64,000 nucleotides of DNA from Sunxiuqinia indica (lineage in GTDB: Bacteria; Bacteroidota; Bacteroidia; Bacteroidales; Prolixibacteraceae). A program made the translations under genes and the position numbers. Below the pieces are notes generated by a model. That model had not been told where the DNA came from. It was given only the letters and a program-made list of their open reading frames with translations, and searched no databases. The stretch spans positions 248,001-312,000 of the forward strand of contig NZ_WVEM01000001.1 of the NCBI RefSeq assembly GCF_009847015.1. Direction: 5' to 3'. Positions 368-28,705 of this stretch are shown piece after piece (the first letter of the stretch is position 1; every line of letters starts with the position of its first letter).

Positions 368-387
368 AACCGAACAAATTGATTAAA

Positions 388-10163: not shown

Positions 10164-10211
10164 TTCGGGTTCCTTAAAAGGGTAAAAGAATAAATTCATG
10201 TAGCGATAAAG

Positions 10212-10250: not shown

Positions 10251-10287
10251 TAAGCACTAATAGCTGGTGTAATATTCGGCTAGAATA

Positions 10288-11543: not shown

Positions 11544-13808
11544 ATGAAACAAACCAACTATCAGCTTTTTGATTTTCTGGATTTCGATCCGGCCATGACC
11601 GGGGAGGAATCTCTCTGGAAAGCTTGTGCTCCGATTTCGTTGGAGCTTGATGGATTCGACGTGGTTTTTGAAATTCCATTTCAAAAACAAAAAAACGCGA
11701 ATGATATTGAACCAGATAAAGAAACCCCACGAAAGATCTATTCACTTCGCATGCGGGCTTACGGGGCAAAAATAATTCGCTTGGCCATCGGATTTGACGA
11801 GCACGCGATGACGGATTCGGTGATGCTGGACATTCATCCAGAACTTTCGGTAAATCCACTTCGCTTTGAGAAAACAGAGGATGAATGGTTGATCAAGGAC
11901 AGCACCGGGATGACCAGAGCATCGTTAAACCGACGACCTGTTGCAATTGACTTTTGGAGTGATTTGGTTCCAGGACCAGAGGAGACCTTGGATTTGACCT
12001 TCTACCCTGATGGCGAGAAAGCTGTGAAAGTGAGTGCTTACGATCAGTTTTTTCCGGCCCGACATGATGCCTATGCATTAGCAGTCGTTGAAAAAGATGG
12101 TCAGCTGGATCGAACAACGATGTCCTTTCATGCCGATGCTGATGAAAAGTTTGTCGGTACCGGTGAACGGTTTACAAAAATGGATTTGTCAGGGCAAACC
12201 TTTCAGCTAAAAAATCAGGATGGACAAGGAGTCAACAATCGACGAGCCTACAAAAATGTGCCATTTTTAATGTCCAGTCGAATGTATGGAATATTCATGC
12301 ATACGTCAGCACATGGGAAATTATCGATGGCCGATCATTCTACTCGCTCCGTACAACTGTTGGTTGAAGAGCCGGCGATGGATGTTTTTCTGATTGGGGG
12401 AGATGAGCCCGAAGAAATTTTAAAAGGCTATCGCCAGTTAACAGGTTTTCCGACCATGCTCCCTAAATGGAGTTTCGGGACCTGGATGAGCCGGATGACT
12501 TATTTTTCAGAAGAGGAAGTAAACGAGATTTGTAATCGACTGCGTAAGGAAGATTATCCTTGCGACGTTATCCATCTGGATACGGGGTGGTTTAGAACTG
12601 ATTGGTTGTGTGAGTGGAAGTTTAATCCGGAACGTTTTCCTGATCCGAAACGATTTGTACAGAATTTGCGCAACGATGGTTACAAGGTAAGTTTGTGGCA
12701 AATGCCCTATATCGCCGCCGAAGCGGAGCAACTTGCCGAAGCACGCAACAAGAAGTACATGTGCAAAGTGAACGAAGTCAAGCAGCAGGGTGGCTCAAAT
12801 TTCAGCGCATTAGATTATGCGGGCACCATCGATTTTACCTACCCTAAAGCTGTTGAATGGTATAAAGGATTGCTAAAAGAACTGCTGGACATGGGTGTGG
12901 TTTGCATTAAAACTGACTTTGGAGAAGACATCCATATGGATGCGGAATACCATGGCATGTCGCCCGATAAGTTAAACAACTTATATGCATTGCTTTATCA
13001 AAAAGCAGCCTATGAAATAACGAAAGAAGTAACCGGCGATGGCATTGTGTGGGCTCGTGCGGGTTGGGCTGGCTGTCAGCGGTATCCGTTACATTGGGGT
13101 GGCGACTCGGCTTGCTCGTGGGATGGCTTGGCTGGCTCGTTAAAAGGAGGCTTGCATATCGGGCTTTCCGGTTTTGGCTTTTGGAGTCATGATGTTCCGG
13201 GTTTTCATGGCGTACCTAATTTCATGAATTCGGTTATCCCTGATGATTTATATGTACGCTGGACGCAGTTTGGCGTGTTCTCATCACACCTGCGTTATCA
13301 CGGAACATCCAAGCGCGAGCCATACGAATATCCGGCGATTTCCGGAATTGTGCGTAATTGGTTGAAACTACGTTATGCCCTCATTCCGTATTTGATGGAG
13401 CAAAGTGAAAAGACGACACAAACCGGATTTCCCGTGCTAAGAGCTTTAATTTTTCATCATCCAAAAGATAAAATGTGCTGGCATATTGATGATCAGTATT
13501 ATTTCGGAGATGATTTTATGGTTGCTCCGGTTATGAATAGTGAGAACAGGAGAGATGTGTATTTGCCAGATGGAGAGTGGGTTAATCTGTTTTCGGGTAA
13601 ACTTACTCAGGGCAATTGCTGGCTGAACAACTTCGAGTGCCCATTGGATGAAATGCCAGTGTGGGTGAAAAAAGGAGCACAGATTTCAGTTTATCCGCAC
13701 CATGTATCCAACACCGATGAAATTGATTTAGCAAAGACCGAAAAACTCGTTTTTGCTGAAACTTACACCGGAATTGAGAATAGTATTCTCGCGGATTTGT
13801 TGAAATAG
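11544..13808 (+). CDS. Cytoplasmic GH31 alpha-glycosidase (alpha-xylosidase YicI-like)
   Basis: A retaining alpha-glycosidase of 754 residues without a signal peptide, so it acts on imported oligosaccharides. The N-terminal beta-sandwich covers about residues 1-300 (GTGERFTKMDLSGQ, IFMHTS), followed by the (beta/alpha)8 barrel. The predicted nucleophile is D458 in IKTDFGED and the acid/base is D521 in HWGGDSACSWDG; both motifs match the YicI alpha-xylosidase subgroup. GLSGFGFWSHDVPGF and RYALIPYL are further GH31 landmarks. Other GH31 activities (glucosidase, galactosidase) remain possible. It is the first gene of the long rightward cluster and faces the AraC-type regulator, so it is probably inducible. 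The next gene follows after about 107 bases. Confidence 0.93.
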   Translation: MKQTNYQLFDFLDFDPAMTGEESLWKACAPISLELDGFDVVFEIPFQKQKNANDIEPDKETPRKIYSLRMRAYGAKIIRLAIGFDEHAMTDSVMLDIHPELSVNPLRFEKTEDEWLIKDSTGMTRASLNRRPVAIDFWSDLVPGPEETLDLTFYPDGEKAVKVSAYDQFFPARHDAYALAVVEKDGQLDRTTMSFHADADEKFVGTGERFTKMDLSGQTFQLKNQDGQGVNNRRAYKNVPFLMSSRMYGIFMHTSAHGKLSMADHSTRSVQLLVEEPAMDVFLIGGDEPEEILKGYRQLTGFPTMLPKWSFGTWMSRMTYFSEEEVNEICNRLRKEDYPCDVIHLDTGWFRTDWLCEWKFNPERFPDPKRFVQNLRNDGYKVSLWQMPYIAAEAEQLAEARNKKYMCKVNEVKQQGGSNFSALDYAGTIDFTYPKAVEWYKGLLKELLDMGVVCIKTDFGEDIHMDAEYHGMSPDKLNNLYALLYQKAAYEITKEVTGDGIVWARAGWAGCQRYPLHWGGDSACSWDGLAGSLKGGLHIGLSGFGFWSHDVPGFHGVPNFMNSVIPDDLYVRWTQFGVFSSHLRYHGTSKREPYEYPAISGIVRNWLKLRYALIPYLMEQSEKTTQTGFPVLRALIFHHPKDKMCWHIDDQYYFGDDFMVAPVMNSENRRDVYLPDGEWVNLFSGKLTQGNCWLNNFECPLDEMPVWVKKGAQISVYPHHVSNTDEIDLAKTEKLVFAETYTGIENSILADLLK

Positions 13809-13915
13809 AATATGGATTACGAAGAAAAAAATAGAAATAAAAAAACAACCAATAACCAATTTCCAGAGGCACTTGAATTTTTAGATACATCTGGGAATTG
13901 AAACTTAAAACTAAA

Positions 13916-14980
13916 ATGAATACCTGGAAAAAAAATATAGATGAATCAAAGCAGAATTTCCTCAATTGGTGGGATCAAAAGGGAATTATTCTGAATATGT
14001 GGGAACACTTGCCAAAAGATGGGGCACCACACGCGGATATCCCAAAACCGGCTGATGCCAAGGATTTGAAACAATACTGGTTCGATCCGGTTTGGCGTGC
14101 TGAAAACCTGGACTATCAGCTGTCGCGGAGTTCTTTTAAGGCTGATATAATGCCGATTGCCAATACCCATTTAGGTCCCGGTTCATTGGCTGCATTAATG
14201 GGGGCTGAGCTGGAAGGTGGAGAAGATACTATCTGGATCAGACACAAGGAGGGGATTGATATGAACCTGAAGTTTGATGAAGCTAATCCGGCTTGGAAAC
14301 TGCACCTGGATCTGTTGAACGAATGTAAAAAGCGTTCAAACGGACACTACTATGTTGGGTGTCCCGACTTGGTTGAGGGGCTGGACGTGTTGGCCAGTAT
14401 TAAAGGCACGCAGGACTTGTTGATGGATATGATTATGCAACCGGAAGAATTGGAGATGCAACTTCAACAGGTGAACGATGTCTACTTTAAGGCGTTCAAT
14501 AAAATTTATGATGTCATTCAGGAAGGTGGCGAAATGGCTTATTGCTATTTCTCAATCTGGGCGCCGGGTACCGTTTCAAAGGTCCAATCTGATATCTCGA
14601 TCATGATTTCGGAGGAGGATTACAATCGGTTTGTGCTGCCATACATTAAAGAACAATGTCAAAAGATTGATTACACGCTTTATCATCTTGATGGAGTAGG
14701 AGCACAGCGACACCTGGATGCAATTTTAAGTATTGATGAGTTGAATGCCATTCAATGGACTCCCGGTGTTGGAGAACCACAAGGCGGAGATCCTTGCTGG
14801 TACGATTTGTACAAACGAATTCTTGCCGGCGGAAAATCAATTATGGCGAACTGGGTGACTTTGGATGAACTGGAGCCTTTAATTGATAACATTGGAACAG
14901 ACGGTTTGCATATTAATGTCGATTTTAAATCAGAAAAAGATATTGATGCAGCCCTGAAAATTGTAGATAAATACAGATAA
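13916..14980 (+). CDS. UroD-family protein, candidate corrinoid methyltransferase (MT1-like)
   Basis: A 354-residue protein with the uroporphyrinogen decarboxylase fold, as judged from the overall pattern: LGPGSLAALMG near residue 90, an aspartate/histidine-containing strand YHLDGVGAQRHLDAI near 260, and GKSIMANWVTLDELEPLI then GTDGLHINV near the end. True HemE motifs at the N-terminus are absent. In anaerobic methyl metabolism UroD-fold proteins move methyl groups between a methylated substrate and a corrinoid protein. This gene shares a run with a corrinoid protein and its reactivation partners, so I infer a substrate-side methyltransferase. The ATG at 13916 is preferred to an in-frame TTG at 13898. 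A non-methyl-transfer role is possible. Confidence 0.72.
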   Translation: MNTWKKNIDESKQNFLNWWDQKGIILNMWEHLPKDGAPHADIPKPADAKDLKQYWFDPVWRAENLDYQLSRSSFKADIMPIANTHLGPGSLAALMGAELEGGEDTIWIRHKEGIDMNLKFDEANPAWKLHLDLLNECKKRSNGHYYVGCPDLVEGLDVLASIKGTQDLLMDMIMQPEELEMQLQQVNDVYFKAFNKIYDVIQEGGEMAYCYFSIWAPGTVSKVQSDISIMISEEDYNRFVLPYIKEQCQKIDYTLYHLDGVGAQRHLDAILSIDELNAIQWTPGVGEPQGGDPCWYDLYKRILAGGKSIMANWVTLDELEPLIDNIGTDGLHINVDFKSEKDIDAALKIVDKYR

Positions 14981-14990
14981 TCAATAACTC

Positions 14991-15656
14991 ATGAAAATAA
15001 GATTTTCGTTTTTGTTTCTGATTCTGTTGGTAAGTGGTTCTTTGGTGAGTGCGCAAAGTACTAATTTAAAACTTCAAGCGATTCCTTTTAAGTTGGAAGT
15101 GCTTAATGAGCCAGTAGCTGTTTACACGGTCAAAGGAGATTCACTGCTTCTTTCTGCCAAAGGAAAAACAAATCTTTTTGCAAGTCCGAGTGGACATTAC
15201 AATGTTCAGAATGCTCCCATGGTATTATTCCATCCAGATTCATCTTTTGTGTTTTGTGCGAAAGTGGGTGCTGATCTAAAAGCTGTTTATGACGTGGCAG
15301 CCTTGGTGTTTTATCAGGATTCAGATTATTGGGGGAAGTTTTGTTTCGAAAACTCGGTAAATAAGCAGACCTCGATCGTCTCAGTAATTAACCGTATTTA
15401 TTCAGATGATTGTAATTCGATGCATATAGATGATGATTATGCTTATATGGCGATTATAAAAAAGGGGCTGGAGATGTCGTTTCATTATTCCCGAGATGGA
15501 AAGAATTGGGAGATGATACGAAATTTTAGATTAGAAACAGAAGAGAGTTTGAAAATTGGCTTTGCTGTTCATGGTTCTCGGGGAGATGGTACGCAGGGAC
15601 AATTCTCGAATATTAGATATTCTTCGAGGGTTCCTGATGATCTCAGATCTTTCTAA
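14991..15656 (+). CDS. Exported DUF1349-like concanavalin-fold protein
   Basis: A 221-residue protein with a signal peptide (MKIRFSFLFLILLVSG, cleavage near VSAQS). The body is predicted beta sandwich, with features of the DUF1349 group: ALVFYQDSDYWGKFCFE near residue 105, SFHYSRDGKNWEMIRNF near 165 and KIGFAVHGSRGDGTQGQFSNIRY at the end. Related proteins bind or cleave sugars in some systems, but no function is established for this one. It sits 10 bases after the UroD-like gene and 31 before the oxidoreductase, so it is co-transcribed with cytoplasmic sugar-handling genes. A carbohydrate-binding role is inference only. Confidence 0.7.
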   Translation: MKIRFSFLFLILLVSGSLVSAQSTNLKLQAIPFKLEVLNEPVAVYTVKGDSLLLSAKGKTNLFASPSGHYNVQNAPMVLFHPDSSFVFCAKVGADLKAVYDVAALVFYQDSDYWGKFCFENSVNKQTSIVSVINRIYSDDCNSMHIDDDYAYMAIIKKGLEMSFHYSRDGKNWEMIRNFRLETEESLKIGFAVHGSRGDGTQGQFSNIRYSSRVPDDLRSF

Positions 15657-15687
15657 ATGAATATTCACTTTTTATTTAAATGTAAGT

Positions 15688-16767
15688 ATGTTGAAAATAG
15701 GGATTTTAGGATTGGGTGAAGGACGGAGTACAATGTCTGCTGTCCTGAATAGTGCGAAATGGGAGTTGAAAACTGTTTGCGACTTGAATATTGATTTGTG
15801 TAAGCAGCGGGCAAAAGAGTTTGATTTTCACAACTATACGACTAATTATGAAGAGCTGTTGAGTGATCCGGAGATTGATGTTGTTGGTATTTACACGCCG
15901 GATCATTTACATGCTACTCACATAAAAATGGCGCTTTCACACGGGAAACATGTAGTGTGTACAAAACCACTGCTTGATGATCTGGCGGAAGCGGCAAGCT
16001 TGCTCGAGCTGAGTCATAAAGTTGGCAAGCGAGTATTTGTGGGGCAAAGCTCCCGTTTTTTCGAGCCGATGAAAAGGCAACGACTTGACTTCGAGAGAGG
16101 CGAAATAGGGGAGCTTGTTACTGTCGAAGCGCACTACAATGCCGATCACCGCTGGTTTTTAGGCAAAGGTTGGTCGTTGCAGGATAGTTTTAAGTGGCTG
16201 TTTGGTGGATTGAGCCATCCGGTGGATTTCATCCGTTGGTATTTGCCCGAAATTGAGGAAGTGATGGGCTACGGTATGTTAAGCCCGAATGGGGTAGCAG
16301 GAGGACTGAAAAACCAAGATACCATGCACTTTATCTTTAAGGCAAAAGATGGACGTATTGCACGGGTTAGCGGATCGTATTCCGGCCCGGTTCAACCGGC
16401 AATTCGCGAGAGCGAAATGAGCTGTATTCTCCGCGGAACCGAAGGTTGCAGCCAGGGTGATTACATGGATTTGCGATACACCATTGCCGATAAAAACGGC
16501 GAAGATAAGCAAATCACTTTTGACGATCAGTTGAAGTACTATTTCCGGTTTGAGGGAAAGAGTCATCACGCCGGAGAGTACAATAATTACCTGGAGCATT
16601 TTGCCGACAGCATCGAAAAAGGCTTCGTCGCTTATCCTGATTTAAAAGAAGGAATTGGAACGGTCGCTTTGTTGAAAACCATGGAAAAAACACTGACTTC
16701 GGGAAAACCGGAGAAAGTACAAGATACCATTGAAGAATATGGCCTTAGGTCAATTCTGAATCCATAA
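15688..16767 (+). CDS. Gfo/Idh/MocA-family NAD(P)-dependent sugar oxidoreductase
   Basis: A 359-residue cytoplasmic dehydrogenase. The N-terminus holds a Rossmann fold with GILGLGEGRSTM, followed by TVCDLN. The EKP-type motif of the family appears as CTKPLLDD near residue 92, with the conserved lysine kept. The C-terminal half is the alpha/beta dimerisation and substrate domain (LFGGLSHPVDFIRWYLP, with a histidine in the usual active-site strand). Members oxidise or reduce sugars, cyclitols and their derivatives. Its position between the DUF1349 protein and a PhyH-type dioxygenase suggests it processes a modified monosaccharide from this locus. The substrate cannot be read from sequence. Confidence 0.9.
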   Translation: MLKIGILGLGEGRSTMSAVLNSAKWELKTVCDLNIDLCKQRAKEFDFHNYTTNYEELLSDPEIDVVGIYTPDHLHATHIKMALSHGKHVVCTKPLLDDLAEAASLLELSHKVGKRVFVGQSSRFFEPMKRQRLDFERGEIGELVTVEAHYNADHRWFLGKGWSLQDSFKWLFGGLSHPVDFIRWYLPEIEEVMGYGMLSPNGVAGGLKNQDTMHFIFKAKDGRIARVSGSYSGPVQPAIRESEMSCILRGTEGCSQGDYMDLRYTIADKNGEDKQITFDDQLKYYFRFEGKSHHAGEYNNYLEHFADSIEKGFVAYPDLKEGIGTVALLKTMEKTLTSGKPEKVQDTIEEYGLRSILNP

Positions 16768-16798
16768 TATTTCTAATAGTAACCTAAAAATAAACACA

Positions 16799-17542
16799 AT
16801 GAGTACAATTATTACCAAAGAACAGGTCGAGCAATACGAGCGGGATGGTTTCGTAATTCTTCGTAACGTAATCTCACAGGAGATGATTGAAAAGATCCAG
16901 AATGAATGCGAACGCTTTATCAAGGAGAAAGATGCTGAGATGGATGCAAAAGGGGTGGAAGTTGATGAGATCAATCACAAAGGGAAAAGGTATTTCATTG
17001 CGATGAAAAACAAATCGAGCCAAGCCATGCAGGAGCTTTTGTTTGGGAAGGAAATGGAGGAGATTACCCGAAGTATTCTAGGCAACGATGTGTATTTATT
17101 TTTAGAACAATATGTGGTTAAAGCTGCCGATAAAGGAATGAAATTTTCCTGGCATCAGGATTCTGGCTATGTCAAAGAAAAGCATAATCCATATTTGTCA
17201 TGCTGGTTGCCCTTGGATGATGTTGACGAGGAGAATGGAACAGTATATTTGCTGACTTATGATGAGGCAGGAACAAGAAAACGGATTGATCATTTTCTTG
17301 AGGATGGCACAAACGATATGGTTGGATATGCTGGTGATAACCCTGGAGTTCCGGCAGTTCTAAAAAAAGGAGATATCGCGCTTTTTTCAAGTGTTTGCTT
17401 TCACCGAAGTGGGTCAAATAACACGAATAAATCACGAAGGGTATTGCTAATGCAGTATTCAGACGAGCCTATTGTGAAAGATGATGGTAGTCCGCTATAC
17501 TTGGCAGATCCATTCATTGTAAATGGACAATTAAAAAAATAG
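16799..17542 (+). CDS. PhyH-family Fe(II)/2-oxoglutarate-type dioxygenase
   Basis: A 247-residue double-stranded beta-helix oxygenase of the phytanoyl-CoA dioxygenase superfamily. The iron triad is visible: H119 and D121 in SWHQDSGYV, and H202 in VCFHRSGSN, with an arginine-rich segment after it that could bind 2-oxoglutarate. The start EQVEQYERDGFVILRNV is typical. Such enzymes hydroxylate small molecules using oxygen, and hydroxylation of a methyl ether can lead to demethylation, though no such role is shown here. It begins 31 bases after the oxidoreductase and ends 4 bases before the next gene, so it belongs firmly to the operon. An oxygen-dependent enzyme beside corrinoid genes is notable. 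Confidence 0.88.
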   Translation: MSTIITKEQVEQYERDGFVILRNVISQEMIEKIQNECERFIKEKDAEMDAKGVEVDEINHKGKRYFIAMKNKSSQAMQELLFGKEMEEITRSILGNDVYLFLEQYVVKAADKGMKFSWHQDSGYVKEKHNPYLSCWLPLDDVDEENGTVYLLTYDEAGTRKRIDHFLEDGTNDMVGYAGDNPGVPAVLKKGDIALFSSVCFHRSGSNNTNKSRRVLLMQYSDEPIVKDDGSPLYLADPFIVNGQLKK

Positions 17543-17546
17543 AAAT

Positions 17547-18422
17547 ATGGAGATTAAAAATACAAACGATGGAACTGATCGGCCACCCTATCTTCGGCTG
17601 GATATAAACTATGGAAATTGTAGCGATCTGCCTTCGTTTTCGGTAGGTCCTCGCGGCAACGATGAGGAAAAACACAATGCCATAAAAGCAGCCGGATACG
17701 CAGGTGTGCAAGATGGCAATCCTGATTTATGTAAGAAACTGGGACTGGAGCTAACTGCACATGCTCGCATTAACAAGGTGGGCGAGTTGGATGAACTGCT
17801 TCCCAAGTGGAAAAAGGATAACTTTAATTGTGCCACTCTGCATGTTGGTTGGGGAATGGAAAGTGATAAGGAGATGGATGAACTGGTTCAATATGTATTG
17901 GATATGTCAGTAAAAAACGATTTTCCAATTTATTTTGAAACCCATCGGTCGACTATTACGCAGGATATGCAGCGAACGGTTGAACTCATCAAGCGATTCC
18001 CCGAGATTCGCTTCAACGGGGATTTTTCGCATTGGTACACCGGGCAGGAAATGGTGTACGGCGGAATTGAAAATAAATGGGAGTTTATCGCTCCGGTTTT
18101 CGATCGCGTTCGATTTATGCATGGTCGTATTGGAAACCCTGGTAGTATTCAGGTTGATATTGCCGATGGTAAAAACCAGATTTATGTCGACCATTTTAAA
18201 GAGATGTGGACACGTGCTTTTGCCGGATTTCTGAAAACGGCGAAACCTGGCGACTACCTCTGCTTTACGGTTGAATTGTTGCAAGCTGATATCTTCTATG
18301 CTCGCCAAATTCAAAATGCGCAGGGAGAGCGGGTTGAAGAGGGTGATCGTTGGCAACAAGCTTTGCTTTACGGGCAAATTGCCAAAGAGTGCTGGAAAGA
18401 AGCCCAAAAAAGAATTGGATAA
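17547..18422 (+). CDS. Sugar phosphate isomerase/epimerase-like TIM-barrel protein (cytoplasmic)
   Basis: A 291-residue protein of the xylose-isomerase-like barrel superfamily. Visible motifs are KAAGYAGVQDGNPDLCKKLGLELTAHARI near residue 55, IYFETHRSTITQDMQRTVELI near 130 and FNGDFSHWYTGQE near 155, with Glu, Asp and His residues positioned as metal ligands in this fold. It lacks a signal peptide. Such proteins isomerise or epimerise sugars or act as lyases. It follows the dioxygenase after 4 bases and precedes the symporter by about 50. A second member, this one a lipoprotein, lies just after the symporter. Start confidence is moderate. Confidence 0.85.
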   Translation: MEIKNTNDGTDRPPYLRLDINYGNCSDLPSFSVGPRGNDEEKHNAIKAAGYAGVQDGNPDLCKKLGLELTAHARINKVGELDELLPKWKKDNFNCATLHVGWGMESDKEMDELVQYVLDMSVKNDFPIYFETHRSTITQDMQRTVELIKRFPEIRFNGDFSHWYTGQEMVYGGIENKWEFIAPVFDRVRFMHGRIGNPGSIQVDIADGKNQIYVDHFKEMWTRAFAGFLKTAKPGDYLCFTVELLQADIFYARQIQNAQGERVEEGDRWQQALLYGQIAKECWKEAQKRIG

Positions 18423-18473
18423 TTAATTGAACGAATAAAATAACAACTAGCAGAAAAAACTAATCAAACTACT

Positions 18474-20063
18474 ATGGACAATATCAATAGTTTCCTAAAC
18501 CCTCTTGATTTTATCATTGTCGGCATTTATCTGGTCGTTTTAATCGGAATTGGGTATTGGGTAAGTTTTGTGAAAAAAGAAGAAGGTGGAAGTGACGAGA
18601 ATTTGTTTTTGGCCGGTCACTCATTGGGTTGGCCAAGTATCGGTTTAACCATGTGGGGGACCAACGTTGGTCCTTCCATGTTGATTGCTTCTGCAAGTAT
18701 TGGTTATACCACCGGTTTAGTTGCCGGTAATTTTGCATGGTACGCATTTGTTTTCATCTTTTTGCTGGCCACCGTTTTTGCACCACGCTATCTTGGTGCC
18801 AATGTGCAAACGCTCCCCGAATTTATGGGTCGGCGTTTTGGCCAGTCTACCCGAAGTATCCTGGCTTGGTACACGCTGGTTACTATCCTTATTTCCTGGC
18901 TGGCACTCACCTTGTTTGCCGGCGGAATTTTAGTAGGACAAATCTTAGCCCTCCCATTGTGGCTGTCGGTTATTATTTTAGTAGTAATTGCTGCTTTCTT
19001 CACAATTGCCGGTGGTTTGAAGGCCATTGCATACACTAATGTTTTTCAGATGATTTTGCTAATTGCCGTTTCGCTGATTTTGACAGTGGTTGGTGTTGTC
19101 AAAGCAGGTGGGCCGATGGAGATTTTTCATAGTACCCCGGGCAGCTATTGGAACTTGTTTCTGCCAATGGATGATAAAAACTACCCATGGCTCGCCATTG
19201 TGCTCGGATATCCCATTATGGGAGTTTGGTTTTGGTGTACCGACCAATCAATGGTGCAGTCGGTTCTTGGAGCTAAAAGCTTAAAACATGGACAGCTCGG
19301 TGCCAACTTTACAGGGTGGTTGAAAATATTGGATGTCGCACTGTTTATTATTCCCGGTATTACTTGTTTTGTGCTATTCCCCGGCTTGAAAAATCCGGAT
19401 GAGGCTTATATGACAATGGTAACACGATTGCTGCCATCGGGAATGATCGGGATGGTAATGGCCGTGTTAATTGCTGCTTTGGTAAGTACCATCGACTCGG
19501 CATTGAATTCATTGAGTACTGTTTTCACCATGGATATTTATGTGAAAAATTACAAGCCTCAGGCAACACAAAAGGAGATTGTATCGATTGGACGTATCGT
19601 TACCGTTTTAGGTGCTTTTATAGCCGTCTTCCTGGCTGTAGCTATTGATAGCATAAAAGGATTGAACCTTTTTGATGTTTTCCAGGCCATATTAGGATTT
19701 ATTGCACCTCCAATGTCAGTCGTGTTTTTATTCGGAGTACTTTGGAAGAAAGCCACCCGAAGAGCTGCAAACTTTACACTTTCAGTTGGTACCTTACTTA
19801 GTCTGGGGACTGGTGTTACGTATTTATGGATTTTCCCTAAAGACAAATATGATTTCTGGCCTCACTTTTTGTTATTGTCCTTCTTTATTTTTATTGTACT
19901 GGCCTTTCTGGCTTTCCTGATTTCGTACTTCGATAAAAAATCAGAAGATCAAAATGTGTTGGACTACGGTGAATTACACACACCTTCAAAGAAAGTATGG
20001 ATTTTGTGGGGTGCCTTAATTATAGTGATGGTTGGTTTGTACATCTTATTCAACGGACATTAA
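18474..20063 (+). CDS. Sodium:solute symporter (SSS/SGLT family)
   Basis: A 529-residue inner-membrane transporter with around 14 hydrophobic segments. The family signature appears as FLAGHSLGWPSIGLTMWGTNVGPS near residue 45, then GGLKAIAYTNVFQM near 180 and ALVSTIDSALNSLSTVFTMDIY near 340, which holds the serine/threonine sodium-site segment. It probably brings the monosaccharide or short oligosaccharide produced by the exported enzymes into the cell. The position between two isomerase-like genes supports a sugar substrate. No MFS-type fucose permease is seen in the window, so this is the only visible sugar importer of the cluster. Confidence 0.95.
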   Translation: MDNINSFLNPLDFIIVGIYLVVLIGIGYWVSFVKKEEGGSDENLFLAGHSLGWPSIGLTMWGTNVGPSMLIASASIGYTTGLVAGNFAWYAFVFIFLLATVFAPRYLGANVQTLPEFMGRRFGQSTRSILAWYTLVTILISWLALTLFAGGILVGQILALPLWLSVIILVVIAAFFTIAGGLKAIAYTNVFQMILLIAVSLILTVVGVVKAGGPMEIFHSTPGSYWNLFLPMDDKNYPWLAIVLGYPIMGVWFWCTDQSMVQSVLGAKSLKHGQLGANFTGWLKILDVALFIIPGITCFVLFPGLKNPDEAYMTMVTRLLPSGMIGMVMAVLIAALVSTIDSALNSLSTVFTMDIYVKNYKPQATQKEIVSIGRIVTVLGAFIAVFLAVAIDSIKGLNLFDVFQAILGFIAPPMSVVFLFGVLWKKATRRAANFTLSVGTLLSLGTGVTYLWIFPKDKYDFWPHFLLLSFFIFIVLAFLAFLISYFDKKSEDQNVLDYGELHTPSKKVWILWGALIIVMVGLYILFNGH

Positions 20064-20077
20064 AATTTAATGAACAG

Positions 20078-20986
20078 ATGACTGAAGAACCTAAAAAAAG
20101 ATTAAATAAATTTTCAATTTGGCTGATGGCAGGCATGCTGCTGAGTTCAACTATTGTACATTCATGCAAGCCCGTTCCGAAAGAAAAAAAGGAGATTCAA
20201 TATAAAGTTGGGGTCGTGGATTTAATGATCCTGAAACGGCAAAAACTTAGTGCATTACCTTTGGCTAAAGAAATTGGAGCTGATGGTGTGGAAGTGGATA
20301 TGGGTGGATTGGGAAATCGTCCGACCTTTAATAATAAACTGATTGATCCGGTGATTCGAAAACAATATTTGGACACCGCTCGTCAGTTGGGTATCGAGAT
20401 TAGCTCACTAGCCATGACTGGCTTTTATTCACAGTCGCTTCCTGAAAGGGAAGGTGCTGTGGAAACGATTCAGGACTGCATCAATACAATGGTATTGATG
20501 GAGGTGAAGGTTGGATTTTTACCTCTAGGTGTTGAGGGGGATTTGATTCAATATCCTGAACGGAGGGCTGCAATTGTTGAACGGTTAAAAGAGGTTGGAA
20601 AAAAAGCTGAAGCCGCTGGAGTAGTTATTGGCATAGAAACTGCATTGGATGCAAAGGGAGAGGTGGAACTTCTGAATGATATTGGATCTCCCGCAATTCA
20701 GATATGCTTCAATTTTGCCAATCCTTTAAAAAACGGTAGAGATATTAATGAAGAATTGAAAATATTAGGTAAAAATAGAATCTGTGAGATTCATGCTACC
20801 AATAAAGATAGTGTGTGGTTGGAAAACGATCCGCAAATTGATATGCCTCAAATTAAAACCACCCTTGATGAATTGGGGTGGAGTGGCTGGTTGTTGGTAG
20901 AGAGATCGCGCGATGCGAATAACACTCGGGATGTTCGAGGTAATTTTGGAGCCAACGTAGCATATCTAAAATCTGTTTTTCAGTAA
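20078..20986 (+). CDS. Lipoprotein sugar phosphate isomerase/epimerase-like protein
   Basis: A 302-residue xylose-isomerase-like barrel with an N-terminal membrane-export segment (SIWLMAGMLLSSTIVHSCKP; Cys at about residue 29). It is predicted to be anchored outside the cytoplasm, where no sugar phosphates are expected. The barrel shows AKEIGADGVEVDMGG near 70, AGVVIGIETALDAKGEVELL near 190 and GWSGWLLVERSRD near 275, with likely metal ligands E, D and H. It may therefore act on free sugars or be a binding protein. I chose the ATG at 20078, 15 bases after the symporter stop; an upstream TTG would overlap the symporter deeply. Confidence 0.85.
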   Translation: MTEEPKKRLNKFSIWLMAGMLLSSTIVHSCKPVPKEKKEIQYKVGVVDLMILKRQKLSALPLAKEIGADGVEVDMGGLGNRPTFNNKLIDPVIRKQYLDTARQLGIEISSLAMTGFYSQSLPEREGAVETIQDCINTMVLMEVKVGFLPLGVEGDLIQYPERRAAIVERLKEVGKKAEAAGVVIGIETALDAKGEVELLNDIGSPAIQICFNFANPLKNGRDINEELKILGKNRICEIHATNKDSVWLENDPQIDMPQIKTTLDELGWSGWLLVERSRDANNTRDVRGNFGANVAYLKSVFQ

Positions 20987-21022
20987 ATTAAATGGGACGA
21001 AATATTTAAAAAAACATAAAAA

Positions 21023-21685
21023 ATGAGACAAATTTCAATCGTTATTTTATTCGTATTTGGATTCGGAGCGTACGGAGCTGCTAATTTACCACAAAAGCAC
21101 GAAGATGAAGCTTACTGGGAAGTTGTTAGCAAACGCGCCGAAAAGATTGTAGAAACACTGGACATCGATGTTGAAGAAAAATTCAATCGGGTACGCGATC
21201 TAATTGCTCAACAGTATTATGATTTAAATGGTGTTCACGATCAGTTAGATGCTACTGTAAAAACCTTGAAAGAAGAAGCAAAGGATGAGGAACAGGTGAA
21301 AGCAAAAATTGAAGAACTGACAGAAAAGGCTGATCAGAAATTGGACAGCTTGCACAACAGTTATTTGAAAAACCTGGCCAAAGATCTTAAACCTGATCAA
21401 ATTGAGAAAGTGAAAGATGGAATGACTTACAGTGTTTTTCCTAAAACTTATCAAGCGTTTCAGGAAATGATTCCTCAGCTGACTGAAGATCAAAAGAAAT
21501 TCATTTACCGGGCGCTTTATGATGCCCGGGAAAGAGCAATGGATGCCGGATCTTCAAAAGCGAAACATGCCTGGTTTGGGAAATATAAGGGGCGCATCAA
21601 TAATTACCTTTCAAAAGAAGGTTACGACTTGAATAAAGAAAGTAAAGATTGGCATAAACGTATCGAAGATGCTAAAAAGAAGTAA
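21023..21685 (+). CDS. Exported DUF3826-family protein
   Basis: A 220-residue exported protein with a signal peptide (MRQISIVILFVFGFGAYGAA). The mature part is almost entirely charged helix, with KRAEKIVETLDIDVEEKFNRVRDLIAQQYY near residue 50, a Lys/Glu-rich coiled middle, and AFQEMIPQLTEDQKKFIYRALYDARERAMDAG near 160. This matches the DUF3826 group often seen next to Bacteroidota polysaccharide genes. Its function is unknown; the helical pattern recalls periplasmic chaperone or sensor proteins. It follows the lipoprotein gene by 36 bases and precedes the corrinoid protein by 55. Confidence 0.82.
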   Translation: MRQISIVILFVFGFGAYGAANLPQKHEDEAYWEVVSKRAEKIVETLDIDVEEKFNRVRDLIAQQYYDLNGVHDQLDATVKTLKEEAKDEEQVKAKIEELTEKADQKLDSLHNSYLKNLAKDLKPDQIEKVKDGMTYSVFPKTYQAFQEMIPQLTEDQKKFIYRALYDARERAMDAGSSKAKHAWFGKYKGRINNYLSKEGYDLNKESKDWHKRIEDAKKK

Positions 21686-21740
21686 GCTTATAGATCAAGA
21701 TATCTGCTGATAAACCCAAAAAAATAAAATCAACTTAATT

Positions 21741-22409
21741 ATGAACGAACTACTAAATAAACTGTCCAACTGCATCGAGTTTGGAAAAATAAACAAGGCT
21801 GCACCATTTCCTCCTCAAATGAAAGGAGAAGACGGTGCCGATGAAATTACCCGTCAGGCATTAGACGAGGGAGTGAACGCACAAGATGTGCTAACCGAAG
21901 GATTGATGCCCGGCATGGAACGAGTTGGTGTAAAGTTTCGCGAAAACAAAGTGTTTGTCCCTCAGGTATTAATGTCGGCGAAAGCCATGAGTACCGCGAT
22001 GGTTCATTTGAAGCCCTATTTCGACTCAGGTGCGGCAAAGCAAAAAGGAACCTTTATTATTGGAACCGTTTTAGGCGATTTGCATGATATTGGCAAAAAC
22101 CTGGTTGCCATGATGGTTGAAGGGAATGGCTATAAAGTAATTGATTTGGGAACCGATGTTGATACCGAAAAATACCTGAATGCTTTGAATGAAAATCCGG
22201 GAGCTGTAGTTGGTCTTTCGGCGTTATTGACAACAACTATGGCTAATATGGAACGGATTACAAAGGAAATAAAGGCAGCAGCTCCTAATACCTTAGTGGC
22301 TGTTGGTGGCGCTCCGGTAAACGAAGAGTTCAGTAAGAAAATTGGAGCCGATAATTATTCTTCGGATCCACAGGCAATTGTTGAGTTTTTAAATACTAAA
22401 ACAGCTTAA
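21741..22409 (+). CDS. Corrinoid (B12-binding) methyl-carrier protein, MtaC/MtbC-like
   Basis: A 222-residue corrinoid protein, the methyl carrier in two-step methyl transfer. Residues 1-90 form the helical cap domain (EGLMPGMERVGVKFRENKVFVPQVLMSAKAM). Residues 95-220 form the Rossmann-like B12 domain with the base-off ligand motif D113-x-H115-xx-G118 in GDLHDIGKN, then VIDLGTDVD, VGLSALLTTTM and VAVGGAPV. All core motifs of MtaC/MtbC/MttC-type proteins are intact. It starts a compact block: the MT2-like gene begins 2 bases after its stop. It presumably receives a methyl group from a substrate-specific protein, such as the UroD-like protein at 13916, and passes it to the next gene product. 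Confidence 0.96.
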   Translation: MNELLNKLSNCIEFGKINKAAPFPPQMKGEDGADEITRQALDEGVNAQDVLTEGLMPGMERVGVKFRENKVFVPQVLMSAKAMSTAMVHLKPYFDSGAAKQKGTFIIGTVLGDLHDIGKNLVAMMVEGNGYKVIDLGTDVDTEKYLNALNENPGAVVGLSALLTTTMANMERITKEIKAAAPNTLVAVGGAPVNEEFSKKIGADNYSSDPQAIVEFLNTKTA

Positions 22410-22411
22410 GT

Positions 22412-23758
22412 ATGAACGGATTAAAATTGTTGGAAAAAGCATTTCGGCTTGAAGAGGTAGAGAGAATCCCATGGGTTCCTTTTGTTGGGGTGCACGGTGG
22501 AAATTTAATTGGTGTTGATGCTGAAGCCTTCCTTCGCAGTTCGAAGCATATTGTTGATGGAATTGATAAGGCTATTGAATTGTATAAGCCCGATGGAATT
22601 CCGGTGGCTTTCGATTTACAAATTGAAGCCGAAATCCTTGGATGTAAATTGGCCTGGAGCAAAGAGAACCCTCCGGCAGTAATTTCACATCCGTTAAACG
22701 AAGGTGCTGAACTTAGTTCGTTAAAACTGCCAACCGAAAACGACGGACGAATACCAGTTGTTTTAGAGGCCACAAGAGAACTACGGAAAAAGCATCCTGA
22801 ACTGGCTTTGTATGGTTTAATTACCGGACCTTTTACATTGGCGCTGCACTTGTTGGGAACCGATATTTTTATGAAGCTTTTCGAAGATCCTGACTATGTG
22901 AATGAACTGATGGAGTTTTGTGCTCAGGTTGGTACTAAACATGCCGAATTGTTGCTGGATGCCGGTTGCGATGTCATTGCTGTTGTCGATCCTATGACCA
23001 GCCAGATTGATCCGATGTCATTCGAGACTTTTGTAAGTCCATTTGTTACGAAAATATTTGATTTTGTTCGTTCAAAGAAAAAATACAGTTCATTCTTTGT
23101 TTGCGGTCATGCACAACAAAACATTGAAGTAATGTGCGACTGTAAACCAGATAATATTTCGATTGATGAAAATATTCCGTTAGATTTTGTAAAGGAAACA
23201 GCCTTGGCAAAAGGAATTAGTTTTGGTGGAAATATGAAGCTGACAAGCGTGCTTTTGCTTGGAAACGAAATGGACTCGAAAAAGGAAGCGGTTAATTGCT
23301 TGGATCTGGGTGGAAAGAAAGGTTTTATTTTGGCTCCTGGATGTGACTTGCCAATGGATACGCCGGTTGCCAACTTGCAAGCGGTTACAGAATTGGTCTA
23401 TGACGATTATGCCCAGCAAGTGACCCGCGAAATGGAACACAGTTCCTCCTTGCAACCACTGAGCTTGGACGGTCACTTCGAAGAAGGCAAAGTAGTGGTT
23501 GACATTATCACACTCGACTCTGCTTCGTGCGCCCCATGCCAATATATGGTTGAGGCAGTAAAACAGGCTTCAATCGATTTTGGAGACAAGGTGATTGTCA
23601 ACGAGCATAAAATAAAGGATGTAGAAGGAATTCAGATGATGATGGCCTTAGGTGTACAAAATGTGCCGACGACCTGTATCAATGGAAAAGTGGAATTTAT
23701 CAGTCAAATTCCACGCAAAACTGAAATTGAAAAAGCAATTAAAAAGGCGATGAATTAA
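22412..23758 (+). CDS. UroD/MtbA-like corrinoid methyltransferase fused to a thioredoxin-like domain
   Basis: A 448-residue fusion. Residues 1-350 are UroD/MtaA/MtbA-like (RIPWVPFVGVHGG, LITGPFTLALHLLG near 140, DAGCDVIAVVDPMTSQIDP near 190, GFILAPGCDLPMDTP near 305). MtaA/MtbA enzymes bind zinc by His-x-Cys and a distant Cys. Here C231 and C311 are present, but the position two before C231 is Phe (FFVCGH), with H233 just after it. Residues 365-448 form a thioredoxin-like domain with C373-A-P-C376 and VQNVPTTCING. It should take the methyl group from the corrinoid protein; the acceptor is unknown. It overlaps the next start by one base (TAATG). Confidence 0.9.
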   Translation: MNGLKLLEKAFRLEEVERIPWVPFVGVHGGNLIGVDAEAFLRSSKHIVDGIDKAIELYKPDGIPVAFDLQIEAEILGCKLAWSKENPPAVISHPLNEGAELSSLKLPTENDGRIPVVLEATRELRKKHPELALYGLITGPFTLALHLLGTDIFMKLFEDPDYVNELMEFCAQVGTKHAELLLDAGCDVIAVVDPMTSQIDPMSFETFVSPFVTKIFDFVRSKKKYSSFFVCGHAQQNIEVMCDCKPDNISIDENIPLDFVKETALAKGISFGGNMKLTSVLLLGNEMDSKKEAVNCLDLGGKKGFILAPGCDLPMDTPVANLQAVTELVYDDYAQQVTREMEHSSSLQPLSLDGHFEEGKVVVDIITLDSASCAPCQYMVEAVKQASIDFGDKVIVNEHKIKDVEGIQMMMALGVQNVPTTCINGKVEFISQIPRKTEIEKAIKKAMN

Positions 23759-24663
23759 TGAGCATTCCATTGCACTTAATAACCGGGTTTTTAGGAAGTG
23801 GCAAAACATCATTTCTCGATCATTTTCTAAAAAAGACCGGCACAAAAGAAAATATAGCGATTATTCAAAATGAATTTTCTCCTGTCAATATTGACGGGAG
23901 AAAGTTTTATGAAGAAGCAAATTTTCAGGTGCTGGAAATTAATAATGGTTCGGTGTTTTGTGTGTGCCTGCTTGGTTCATTTATTCAATCGTTAAATGAA
24001 TTTATTGAAAAATATAAGCCGGATCTGTTGCTGATGGAAGCATCGGGTTTGTCTGATCCCATCGGTGTTGGGCAAATTTTTCAGTCATCGCAATTAAAGG
24101 GCAAAGTTTTTTTAGAACATGTTTGGTGTTTGGTTGATGTTTTCAACTTTAACCGGATACCCGCTCTAAAAGTACGAATGGAACACCAATTGCGGAGTGC
24201 AGACACCATTATCCTAAATAAAACAGATTTGCTCAAAGGAAGTACCGACGATCTTTTAAAGAAAATTAAGACGATCAATCCGTTTGCAAAGATAGTAGAA
24301 GGGCGTTACGGTCAGGTTGATGTTAGCGATTACAAAAGAGCACTCAATTTATTTCCTGAAGATCAAGCTTCGACTTTAGGGCGACCGGATATCGGATCTG
24401 TTGTAATTCGCTCAACCCGTTCTATCGCTCCCGAAAACTTAACTAAGTTCTTGAATCAGTTAAAGGCAGATTGTCTCCGATGCAAGGGTTTTGTCAAGTT
24501 GAAAACCGGCAAGTCAGCTTTTGTTCAGGGTGTTTTCGATTCGGTTACGATACACGAAGTCGAAGATTTCACAGGAGCTGGAGATCTTGTTTTAATTGGT
24601 AATTTTGAGGATGAAAAGAATCTTCAGCTTATGTTTGACGAATACTGCAAAGATGAACATTGA
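23758..24663 (+). CDS. CobW-family GTPase (COG0523), putative metallochaperone
   Basis: A 301-residue G3E GTPase. The Walker A motif GFLGSGKT covers residues 10-17, an NKTD base-recognition motif follows near 160, and ESSGL-like MEASGLSDPIG near 100 is the switch region. The family metal motif CxCC appears as FCVCLLG, so the third cysteine is missing. COG0523 proteins deliver zinc or cobalt to client enzymes or aid cobalamin processes. Translational coupling on both sides (1-base overlap with the methyltransferase, 11-base overlap with the MetH-activation-like gene) ties it to the corrinoid system. It may supply zinc to the methyltransferase or drive corrinoid handling; that is inference. Confidence 0.92.
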   Translation: MSIPLHLITGFLGSGKTSFLDHFLKKTGTKENIAIIQNEFSPVNIDGRKFYEEANFQVLEINNGSVFCVCLLGSFIQSLNEFIEKYKPDLLLMEASGLSDPIGVGQIFQSSQLKGKVFLEHVWCLVDVFNFNRIPALKVRMEHQLRSADTIILNKTDLLKGSTDDLLKKIKTINPFAKIVEGRYGQVDVSDYKRALNLFPEDQASTLGRPDIGSVVIRSTRSIAPENLTKFLNQLKADCLRCKGFVKLKTGKSAFVQGVFDSVTIHEVEDFTGAGDLVLIGNFEDEKNLQLMFDEYCKDEH

Positions 24664-25339
24664 AAGAAGTTTTACATTTGAAGAACTGGAAATCGATCCG
24701 AAGGAAATTATAGCAACTTTAGGATACACCGAAGATTCATTTTTTGAACCATTCCCAACTTATTTGGCTCAGGCATTTGAGTGTTGTAAACAATTGAATG
24801 ATATAAAAGGGGCATACCGAATTCTAAAGATGGATGAGTTTTGCTCTGATAAAAAAAAAATCTGCGTTCAGGATTTGCAATTTAACGTTGGACGAACGAT
24901 TCGGAAAGAGTTAAACGGCGCAGAAAATATTGCCTTCTTTGTATGTACTGCCGGAGCGGAGATTAGTCAGCTTGCTGATAAGTTGCTGAAGGGCGAAGAC
25001 CCCGTTCTTGGCTACGTGTACGATGTAATTGGAAGTGCCATTGCGGAGGCTGTTGGCGATAAAATACAAGCAACTATCAGCCTGAGTGAACAAAAAGCAG
25101 GGAGAAAAATTACAAACAGGTATAGTCCGGGATATTGTCACTGGAATGTGACCGACCAGCACAAACTGTTTTCCCTTTTCGGAGGAACTGCGTGCGGTGT
25201 AAAGCTCACACCATCGTCTTTAATGCACCCCGTGAAGTCAATTAGCGGACTAATTGGGATTGGTGAAAATGTTGAGTTTAACGATTATCAATGCAATCTT
25301 TGTCAACTCGAAAATTGTGTTTATCGAGATAAACATTAG
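24653..25339 (+). CDS. MetH activation-domain-like protein, candidate corrinoid reactivase
   Basis: A 228-residue stand-alone relative of the methionine synthase activation domain. The signature RYSPGYCHW lies at residues 156-164; in MetH the equivalent RxSPGY segment binds S-adenosylmethionine for reductive remethylation of inactive cob(II)alamin. Further family features are AGAEISQLADKLLKG near 105, AIAEAVGDKIQ near 135 and HPVKSISGLIGIG near 195. The C-terminus has three cysteines (CNLCQLENC) that could bind a metal or cluster. It is likely to reactivate the corrinoid protein of this block. The ATG at 24653 is chosen because it couples to the CobW stop; a longer TTG start would overlap by 68 bases. 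Confidence 0.88.
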   Translation: MNIERSFTFEELEIDPKEIIATLGYTEDSFFEPFPTYLAQAFECCKQLNDIKGAYRILKMDEFCSDKKKICVQDLQFNVGRTIRKELNGAENIAFFVCTAGAEISQLADKLLKGEDPVLGYVYDVIGSAIAEAVGDKIQATISLSEQKAGRKITNRYSPGYCHWNVTDQHKLFSLFGGTACGVKLTPSSLMHPVKSISGLIGIGENVEFNDYQCNLCQLENCVYRDKH

Positions 25340-25390
25340 CTTGTTCTAAAAAAGCAAGGTAAATTTTTTACAATCTAAAATTTGAAAAAT

Positions 25391-26326
25391 ATGAAAAAAG
25401 GATATTGGATATTGGCAATGCTGTTTATCGCATTAGTGGCCTGCAAACAAGAAAAAGAATATTACGTATTTAGCACCTTCAGAGAGCCGGCAACCGATGG
25501 CCTGTTTTTAGCTTACAGCGAAGATGGCTACCATTGGAATGATTTGGGAGGCCCATACCTGGCGCCAGAAGTTGGGACTCAAAAAGTCATGCGCGACCCT
25601 TCTATTGTGCAAGGGCCTGACGGTACTTTTCATTTTGTATGGACGTCATCATGGCGAGGTGACTATGGAATTGGTTACGCAAGCTCAAAAGACTTGATCA
25701 ACTGGTCGGAGCAAGAACATATTTTGCTGATGGATCATGATACTTCCACTGTAAACGTTTGGGCTCCCGAGCTTTTTTACGACGACGAAAAGGAAGAGTA
25801 TATAATTGTTTGGGCATCAACAGTGCCCTACAAATTCGAAAAGGGAATTGAAGATGAGAGAAATAATCATCGACAATACTATGTTACAACCAAAGATTTT
25901 AAAACGTTTTCAGAAACGAAACTATTTCTCGATCCCGGGTTTAGTGCAATTGACGCGACAATTGTAAAGCGCGCTACAAACGACTATGTGTTGGTGTTTA
26001 AAGATAATACGCGTCCTATGCGAAATATAAAGGTTGCCTTTGCTGATTCTCCGATTGGTCCGTTTCATGATATCTCCGGGCCATTTACCAAGTTTAAAAC
26101 CGAAGGGCCAACTGTCGCAAAAGTTGGCGATCAGTACTTGATTTATTTCGATTCGTATGGCGACTATGAATATGGAGCGGTGAGTACAACCGATTTTGAA
26201 ACGTTTAAGAATATTTCGGATCAAGTTTCACTTCCCGAAGGGCATAAGCATGGAACCATTTTTAAAGTAGAGCAGCAAATTATTGATCAGCTTCTGGCGA
26301 ATCAGCCTAATTTGAAAAAGGAATAA
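25391..26326 (+). CDS. GH43-like lipoprotein, five-bladed beta-propeller glycosidase
   Basis: A 311-residue GH43-type enzyme with a lipoprotein signal (MKKGYWILAMLFIALVAC). The three catalytic carboxylates of the family are visible: D69 in MRDPSIV (base), D188 in SAIDATI (pKa modulator) and E238 in TEGPTVA (acid). Repeated blade motifs (FHFVWTSSWRGDYGIGYASSKDLINW, YYVTTKDFKTF, VAFADSPIGPF, GAVSTTDFETF) fit the propeller. Family members release arabinose, xylose or galactose residues. It would act at the surface or in the periplasm, although it sits in a run of mostly cytoplasmic genes. An ATG at 25391 is preferred to a TTG three codons earlier. Confidence 0.88.
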   Translation: MKKGYWILAMLFIALVACKQEKEYYVFSTFREPATDGLFLAYSEDGYHWNDLGGPYLAPEVGTQKVMRDPSIVQGPDGTFHFVWTSSWRGDYGIGYASSKDLINWSEQEHILLMDHDTSTVNVWAPELFYDDEKEEYIIVWASTVPYKFEKGIEDERNNHRQYYVTTKDFKTFSETKLFLDPGFSAIDATIVKRATNDYVLVFKDNTRPMRNIKVAFADSPIGPFHDISGPFTKFKTEGPTVAKVGDQYLIYFDSYGDYEYGAVSTTDFETFKNISDQVSLPEGHKHGTIFKVEQQIIDQLLANQPNLKKE

Positions 26327-26338
26327 AGAAGTAATAGA

Positions 26339-27776: not shown

Positions 27777-27787
27777 AAGATCTAATC

Positions 27788-28615: not shown

Positions 28616-28640
28616 ATAGAAAGAATGACCGTGAAAAAAA

Positions 28641-28669
28641 CTCATATGCTTTTAAAGAAAGCATATGAG
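28641..28669 (+). repeat. Perfect 12-bp hairpin before the alcohol dehydrogenase gene
   Basis: CTCATATGCTTT (28641-28652) pairs perfectly with AAAGCATATGAG (28658-28669) around a 5-base loop. It lies between the lactonase stop and the chosen start of the dehydrogenase at 28706. There is no T run after it, so it is more likely an mRNA processing or stability element than a terminator. Confidence 0.65.
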
Positions 28670-28705
28670 GAAATACACGAGTCGCATAACATAAATAATA
28701 AGAGA

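Follow-up and report, generated by a model that had tools for sequence, protein, structure and literature searches.

What does a corrinoid-dependent methyl-transfer block do inside a polysaccharide-degradation cluster? The question is raised by a 64,000-nucleotide stretch of the 5.25 Mb genome of Sunxiuqinia indica (contig NZ_WVEM01000001.1, positions 248,001 to 312,000), here called the window. In it, a same-strand run of 18 genes (11544-29722; intergenic gaps of at most 107 bases, one start being set 3 bases early) contains five genes that a preliminary description had read as a corrinoid system dedicated to O-methyl sugars. In our best reading, exchangeable UroD-type methyltransferases are predicted to demethylate O-methyl sugars onto a shared vitamin B12 hub. 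For the window itself, we hold with a probability of about 0.68 that the cluster dismantles a methylated pectic fragment and removes its methyl ether by the corrinoid route, with the first of the five proteins as the substrate:corrinoid methyltransferase (MT1). That the block carries out corrinoid methyl transfer of some kind is almost certain. All five genes proved to be intact open frames where they had been placed:

13916..14980, + strand: UroDx, candidate MT1 (profile-profile comparison, fusion, co-occurrence)
21741..22409, + strand: CORR, corrinoid carrier protein, MtgC/MtaC-like (B12-binding domains)
22412..23758, + strand: MT2trx, MtaA-like domain fused to a thioredoxin domain (URO-D match; structure 4AY7)
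23758..24663, + strand: CobW/COG0523-type GTPase (both CobW domains)
24653..25339, + strand: ACT, MetH-activation-like protein with RYSPGY and C-x2-C-x5-C (Met_synt_B12)

The UroDx frame encodes 354 amino acids from an ATG at 13916, a better start than the TTG at 13898 from which it is also listed. The protein had been described as UroD-like. No Pfam or NCBIfam match was found at E 0.001, but profile-profile comparison did relate it remotely to the UroD-type families. Against solved structures, the only contact of its profile was CdmB (9rui), at a non-significant E of 0.06, and a structure model was of low confidence (pLDDT 62.8, pTM 0.65) and partly circular. A further observation came from relatives. 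At loci L119 (9441-12398) and L120 (9851-12904), one single frame of 985 or 1017 amino acids joins UroDx to a homocysteine S-methyltransferase (PF02574) and both B12 domains. This fusion is present in 9 of the 15 genomes of one Bacteroidales genus, at 59-100% identity and with one of the nine copies cut by a contig start, and absent from the other six. Because of this fusion, UroDx is tied to corrinoid chemistry. Many genomes of the same genus also carry a separate MetH beside the fused chain.

Co-occurrence pointed the same way. A survey of 295 Bacteroidales genomes gave 12 with a UroDx match at E 1e-5, nine of which reached E 1e-30 or lower. CORR is encoded in each of these nine strong genomes, against 37 of the 286 others (p 3e-8), and UroDx genomes that lack MT2trx still carry it without exception. 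With the three weak matches included (G045, G084 and G208, none with a corrinoid protein match), the figures were 9/12 against 37/283 (p 4e-6). These counts take in 46 corrinoid genomes, of which two matched only in frames of 778-823 amino acids (G003 and G018) and two only by way of the UroDx fusion (G111 and G211). Beyond the order, the only carrier in a phylum sample of 395 genomes was the window's own; plasmids gave one weak partial match and viral contigs none. We compared the stretches analysed around 12 UroDx loci of at least about 50% identity (the window, L114-L120 and L170-L173, the last four chosen from genomes already known to carry the core genes; L117 is 6.7 kb long and starts at UroDx). 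An SSF symporter accompanied UroDx in 11, GH31 in 10, a Gfo/Idh oxidoreductase in 6, a GH141-like gene in 5, a corrinoid domain in 5 and GH138 in 4. ACT was present in L114-L116 and a PF02574 gene in L115; L116 and L118 have an MtaA-like gene in which the H-x-C motif is complete. We consider it probable that UroDx is an MT1 and, slightly less so, that its substrate is an O-methyl sugar.

The other four proteins largely bore out their earlier labels. CORR is a stand-alone carrier, complete with B12-binding_2 and B12-binding domains and the DxHxxG motif (DLHDIG), and both domains of the CobW-like protein were matched. The description of MT2trx as MtbA-like did not hold as worded. Its URO-D domain (197 bits) has MtaA (4AY7, 101 bits) as the closest solved structure and keeps both cysteines of the zinc motif, but MtaA has H-I-C where MT2trx has F-V-C, so that the H-x-C zinc motif of MtaA and MtbA is not preserved. 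Phenylalanine stands in place of the histidine in all of the 62 rows listed from an alignment of 65. MT2trx also has an added C-terminal thioredoxin domain with CAPC, which the preliminary description had left unmentioned; CAPC or CAAC is invariant in the family. For ACT, the start at 24653 is the better one, and the Met_synt_B12 match covers profile positions 116-253 of 273. Among 38 aligned ACT rows, RYSPGY was present in 31, RFSPGY in 2, RQVAGY in 1 and none of these in 4. Such motifs fit a predicted reactivation dependent on S-adenosylmethionine (SAM). All 38 rows also share a terminal C-x2-C...C cluster, which MetH would not be expected to have and which may bind a metal or an Fe-S centre. 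Among named organisms, Gaoshiqia sediminis (83%) and Sunxiuqinia (81%) carry the closest relatives of the core protein.

The CORR-MT2trx-CobW core recurs in dozens of genomes and is therefore more than a chance arrangement. The full MT2trx fusion was found in 13 of the 295 Bacteroidales genomes; a fourteenth match, 26% identical, has no thioredoxin domain. In 55 named loci, with counts limited by contig ends, MT2trx lies mostly in Prolixibacteraceae and Marinilabiliales-type genera, and also in Lutibacter, Mariniflexile, a planctomycete and Clostridia. Their neighbours include CobW (47), CORR (46), ACT (30), a PF02574 gene (18) and the activator RACo (8), together with UroD-type proteins of two further groups, f4 (13) and f14 (5), and UroDx in one. 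Conservation mainly beside genes for unrelated methyl substrates would have spoken against a sugar function. In the stretches analysed, 19 of the 55 loci have a UroD-type candidate and 1 has an MtmB-like gene; the remainder mostly show no substrate gene, several of them lying on short contigs.

These other UroD-type partners link the core to sugars. At the 55 loci, a galactokinase accompanies an f4-type UroD in 4, P450-ferredoxin-reductase genes occur in 6 (five with an f4-type UroD), and RhaT occurs in 4, with f14 or f4. The P450 of L087 is a near relative (646 bits) of 6G5O/6G5Q, which we take to be the 6-O-methyl-galactose P450 of Zobellia, and the alcohol dehydrogenase (ADH) of L085 matches 8H2A/8H2B, presumably the partner ADHs of that P450. 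A tree of 40 f4/f14 proteins required 2 changes of the galactose label and 4 of the rhamnose label, fewer than in all 500 shuffles, a result helped by near-copies and long branches. The window's genome itself has two f4-type UroD genes, on contigs C20 and C37, beside RhaT, RhaM and GH106. At L112 (1912-2958) and L113 (9275-10321) of this genome we noted two nearly duplicate rhamnosidase loci, each with an f4-type UroD, RhaT, RhaM, GH106 and a DUF5703/GH95-like gene. Across the 295 genomes, f4/f14-type genes are present in 43, of which 30 have CORR against 16 of the 252 others. They are found in 12 of the 13 MT2trx genomes, and 28 of the 31 genomes with CORR of at least 54% identity have a UroD-type MT1. 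With the three genomes that had contributed to the profile removed, the f4/f14 co-occurrence was 9/10 against 31/282. The block within a polysaccharide utilization locus, the fusion, the co-occurrence and the P450, galactokinase and rhamnose neighbours favour O-methyl sugars, and the methyl-sugar part of the preliminary description is, on this genomic context, well supported.

The P450 genes also bring in an oxidative alternative. In the Lutibacter and Mariniflexile loci, they immediately follow a corrinoid core that includes an f4-type UroD. The P450/ADH gene neighbourhood has been described for 6-O-methyl-galactose, and P450 demethylation is reported to need O2 and to yield formaldehyde (PMC10033563). 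This route of porphyran degraders solves the same chemical task, whereas a corrinoid route would involve neither O2 nor formaldehyde. At L072, L074, L075, L085 and L087, the 6-O-methyl-galactose P450 genes directly follow the core, which places an O2-dependent route beside an apparently O2-independent one. The window's PhyH-family oxygenase (16799-17542) is possibly such an aerobic counterpart, like the P450 in Lutibacter. It could even be the real sugar demethylase, acting oxidatively and releasing formaldehyde, with the corrinoid genes scavenging another methyl group. The position of its gene inside the run and the P450 precedent speak for this proposal; of the other UroD-type loci only L179 had a gene labelled as a homologue (26%), the 11 remaining UroDx loci had none, and we consider the proposal improbable.

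Which sugar is at stake depends on the glycan genes. As had been reported, GH31, GH43, the SSF symporter, a Gfo/Idh oxidoreductase and a zinc-dependent ADH lie in the same run according to family scans, and putative SusC/SusD genes as well as GH2, GH138 and GH141-like genes lie upstream of it. The SusC/SusD pair was named by sequence features and BLAST labels, SusC (L006, 7086-10367) lying upstream, outside the window. Judged from the DNA, the gene order is operon-like. The remaining features are as follows:

379..1878, + strand: SusD-like outer-membrane protein (sequence features, BLAST labels)
2255..5086, + strand: GH2, hydrophobic N-terminus (family scan)
5099..7831, + strand: GH138-type alpha-D-galacturonidase, an enzyme class of rhamnogalacturonan II (RG-II) side chain A (NF049878; 6HZF/6HZE BPa0997)
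7956..10163, + strand: GH141-like, alpha-L-fucosidase class (GH141_M; 5MQP BT_1002)
10288..11238, - strand: AraC-type regulator (sequence; the family recurs at related loci)
11544..13808, + strand: GH31, no hydrophobic N-terminus, probably cytoplasmic (family scan)
14991..15656, + strand: DUF1349, hydrophobic N-terminus (family scan)
15688..16767, + strand: Gfo/Idh/MocA oxidoreductase (family scan; next to UroDx in 6 of 12 UroDx loci)
16799..17542, + strand: PhyH-family 2-oxoglutarate/Fe(II) oxygenase, rival demethylase (family scan)
17547..18422, + strand: protein without a Pfam or NCBIfam match, TIM-barrel-like by eye only
18474..20063, + strand: SSF sodium:solute symporter (family scan; with UroDx in 11 of 12 loci)
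20078..20986, + strand: xylose-isomerase-like TIM barrel, hydrophobic N-terminus (family scan)
21023..21685, + strand: DUF3826, hydrophobic N-terminus (family scan)
25382..26326, + strand: GH43-like, lipoprotein-like N-terminus (family scan)
26339..26740, + strand: RhaM-family sugar mutarotase (family scan)
26733..27776, + strand: aldo/keto reductase, candidate sugar 1-dehydrogenase (family scan)
27788..28615, + strand: Amidohydro_2, L-fuconolactonase-like (NF052480, 260 bits, under the cut-off of 400)
28625..29722, + strand: zinc-dependent alcohol/polyol dehydrogenase (family scan)

The GH138 protein, absent from the preliminary description, passed the NCBI cut-off for alpha-D-galacturonidase (NF049878, 1552 bits; cut-off 1300) and matched 6HZF/6HZE (BPa0997) at about 1077 bits, BPa0997 being, we assume, the GH138 of the RG-II work. 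The earlier GH141-like call was upheld by GH141_M and by 5MQP BT_1002 (156 bits). GH138 targets the galacturonic acid of chain A, as the reference list of PMC12282258 indicates, and GH141 is a fucosidase activity according to a review abstract. We take the pair as a mark of RG-II side chain A, with the activities predicted by family. PMC12168206 places 2-O-methyl-xylose on this side chain and describes (1,3)-alpha-xylosyltransferases for it. In the window, GH31 directly precedes UroDx; its closest solved structure is 5F7C, followed by YicI. 5F7C is presumably a GH31 of B. thetaiotaomicron. Because 2-O-methyl-xylose fits the GH138/GH141/GH31 combination, it is a candidate substrate of UroDx, with about an even chance of being the right one. 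RhaM, the aldo/keto reductase and the fuconolactonase-like protein would fit L-fucose oxidation and recall what we take to be the Xanthomonas-type L-fucose pathway. A crude measure of N-terminal hydrophobicity suggests export for GH2, GH138, GH141, GH43, DUF1349, DUF3826 and the TIM barrel at 20078, and a cytoplasmic location for GH31, UroDx and the corrinoid genes. A scan for promoter-like sites (34 against 42.7 expected) and terminator-like sites (27 against 17.0 expected) was uninformative.

In order to trace the methyl acceptor, we searched the genome for candidate enzymes. No PF02574 enzyme was found besides MetH, and Pterin_bind occurred only in MetH and in a 297-amino-acid protein taken as dihydropteroate synthase, with no other methyl-Co:tetrahydrofolate enzyme. 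A homocysteine S-methyltransferase linked to UroDx is thus seen in the genus of L119 and L120 and not, outside MetH, in the window's genome. At other core loci, a PF02574 gene accompanies all 18 longer MT2trx forms (about 90 amino acids longer) and none of the 28 shorter ones; the longer tail gave two thioredoxin matches in the one protein scanned. From this we infer that the methyl group goes to a thiol, most likely homocysteine, by a link that is weak. Homocysteine as the final acceptor in this organism is a tentative choice, with slightly less than an even chance. The thiol-linked domain of the MtaA-like MT2trx and the recurrence of homocysteine methyltransferases at 18 of the 55 loci would also suit a salvage role for methyl-sulfur or methionine/selenium, the function suggested for type I mlp clusters, with the position in a polysaccharide utilization locus incidental. 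According to Kountz and Balskus (PMC10418091), these clusters of non-methanogens combine MtaA-like proteins with a corrinoid protein, require Ram as well as at least 2 Mlps, and are linked to methyl-sulfur/selenium. The run has one MtaA-like protein and no RACo or Ram among its scanned genes (the genome's RACo-type gene was seen only on contig C35), and sugar-specific neighbours recur at core loci. We rejected a type I mlp assignment, and regard the salvage function as very improbable.

Compared with known systems, the block is of a familiar kind. The aryl-ether O-demethylases MtvABC, OdmABD/VdmB and MtoB, as well as CdmBCA, combine a UroD-superfamily MT1, a small corrinoid protein and an acceptor methyltransferase, a layout that the block would share with UroDx as its putative UroD-type MT1. 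The substrates of those systems are methoxyaromatics or haloalkanes, with tetrahydrofolate as the methyl acceptor, and the UroD-superfamily MT1s described in PMC13222342 have these same substrates. Here, in contrast to the MtvABC/OdmABD type, activation appears to use a MetH-like SAM domain, the setting is a polysaccharide utilization locus, and there is no methyl-Co:tetrahydrofolate enzyme besides MetH. The likeness to MetH lies in the relatives that join UroDx, a homocysteine S-methyltransferase and both B12 domains, and in the resemblance of ACT to the MetH activation domain; the differences are that UroDx replaces the methyl-tetrahydrofolate domain and that the window encodes each part separately. 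Neither a corrinoid system for sugar ethers nor an anaerobic demethylation route for methylated sugars was found among the matches listed from the open-licence literature searched. The system appears to be a corrinoid methyltransferase system of known kind, in which the substrate class, the MT1 family and the MetH-like fusion of relatives would be new.

From the observed gene content, fusion, co-occurrence and neighbourhoods, a scheme with its substrate, direction, acceptor, metal and MT2trx chemistry can be proposed. The cluster would import and break down a pectic fragment that bears methyl groups, RG-II side chain A being the likeliest one, and GH31 would, as a best guess, release 2-O-methyl-D-xylose. 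Cytoplasmic UroDx would then move the methyl group from the O-methyl sugar to the Co(I) of CORR, leaving the free sugar. CORR would pass it to a thiol. Here this step would run via MT2trx, with homocysteine or another thiol as the probable acceptor; elsewhere among UroDx lineages, a PF02574 enzyme, either fused or encoded nearby, would transfer it to homocysteine. ACT would re-methylate oxidised Co(II) with SAM in the manner of MetH, and CobW would provide a metal or cofactor. The core would be a hub fed also by the two f4-type UroD MT1s beside the rhamnose genes and possibly by the genome's own MtaB methanol protein.

Several findings weigh against this scheme. MT2trx lacks the zinc-motif histidine, the window has neither a PF02574 nor a methyl-Co:tetrahydrofolate enzyme, its operon also encodes the O2-dependent PhyH enzyme, and the activities of GH31, GH138 and GH141 are assigned by family. 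The f4/f14 co-occurrence is partly circular, since the profile (A2) was built partly from core neighbours, and 13 of the 43 f4/f14 genomes, some of them incomplete, have no CORR match at E 1e-30. UroDx (9 genomes) and MT2trx (13) overlap only in the window's genome among the 295 (p 0.34), and UroDx is absent from 33 of the 43 named core genomes. Elsewhere the core keeps other company: MtaB stands with CORR, ACT and MT2trx in L037; in L091 the neighbours of one clostridial MT2trx relative (42% identity) are amidohydrolases and an MtmB-like gene, and in L089 another lies beside a pterin-binding protein. Because of this single-genome overlap and these MtmB-like, pterin-binding and MtaB neighbours, the four core genes, which move independently of UroDx, are best regarded as a methyl acceptor module of general use that is not dedicated to sugars. 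On this point the preliminary description has to be revised, "dedicated" giving way to a "shared" hub. The L091 set (10001-20434), which includes two corrinoid proteins, perhaps serves demethylation of an N-methyl purine or a similar compound.

A shared hub invites two further explanations. The core might serve methanol from pectin methyl esters, with an MtaB and carrier on contig C35 loading the methyl group, the copy described here forming the acceptor side, and UroDx unrelated. Such a set does exist in the genome (L005 9368-14065: a corrinoid protein, MtaB (PF12176, 532 bits), CobW, a RACo-type activator and two AraC-like regulators), MT2trx is the only MtaA-like protein found in the genome with PF01208, and L037 shows that MtaB can accompany this core. 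The C35 set, however, owns its carrier, no MtaB-type gene was seen in the 55 named core loci, 19 of which have a UroD-type candidate, and in other genomes UroDx forms one chain with a corrinoid domain. Methanol use is thus unlikely to be the function of the core. No MtaB was found among the scanned genes of the run itself (the C35 gene is at L005 10083-11522), and we rejected a methanol-only hub, as a separate MtaB set cannot explain the UroDx fusion. A 718-amino-acid B12 protein on contig C22 is presumably methylmalonyl-CoA mutase. Alternatively, the window's core might work only with the two f4-type UroDs, on O-methyl-rhamnose, and be located among RG-II genes by chance. It is true that f4-type genes track the core while UroDx does not, and in four core genomes UroDx is located away from it. 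But CORR persists in every UroDx genome without MT2trx, L114 and L116 retain a corrinoid protein and ACT beside UroDx, and the order in the window is operon-like; we judge this explanation quite unlikely. Removal of a sugar methyl ether by UroDx and the corrinoid carrier remains the preferred reading.

In summary, our results suggest a wider proposition, which we consider evenly balanced: that anaerobic Bacteroidota and some Planctomycetes possess modular B12-dependent sugar O-demethylases, with an interchangeable MT1 for each O-methyl sugar (2-O-methyl-xylose, O-methyl-rhamnose, 6-O-methyl-galactose), each in its own glycan locus, around a shared corrinoid hub, and that one gut- or sediment-type lineage has a MetH-like single chain making methionine from glycan methyl ethers. 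Many sugars of plants, algae and microbes are capped by methyl ethers, which stand in the way of normal catabolism, and the O2-dependent P450 route is known for one methyl sugar. If true, the finding would be a new microbial way to use methylated sugars, removing the methyl group without oxygen via vitamin B12, and would account for the ability of anaerobes to complete the breakdown of RG-II and porphyran. It would also give a function to UroD-superfamily proteins of glycan loci that have had no assigned role, and would link glycan breakdown to B12 supply and methionine.

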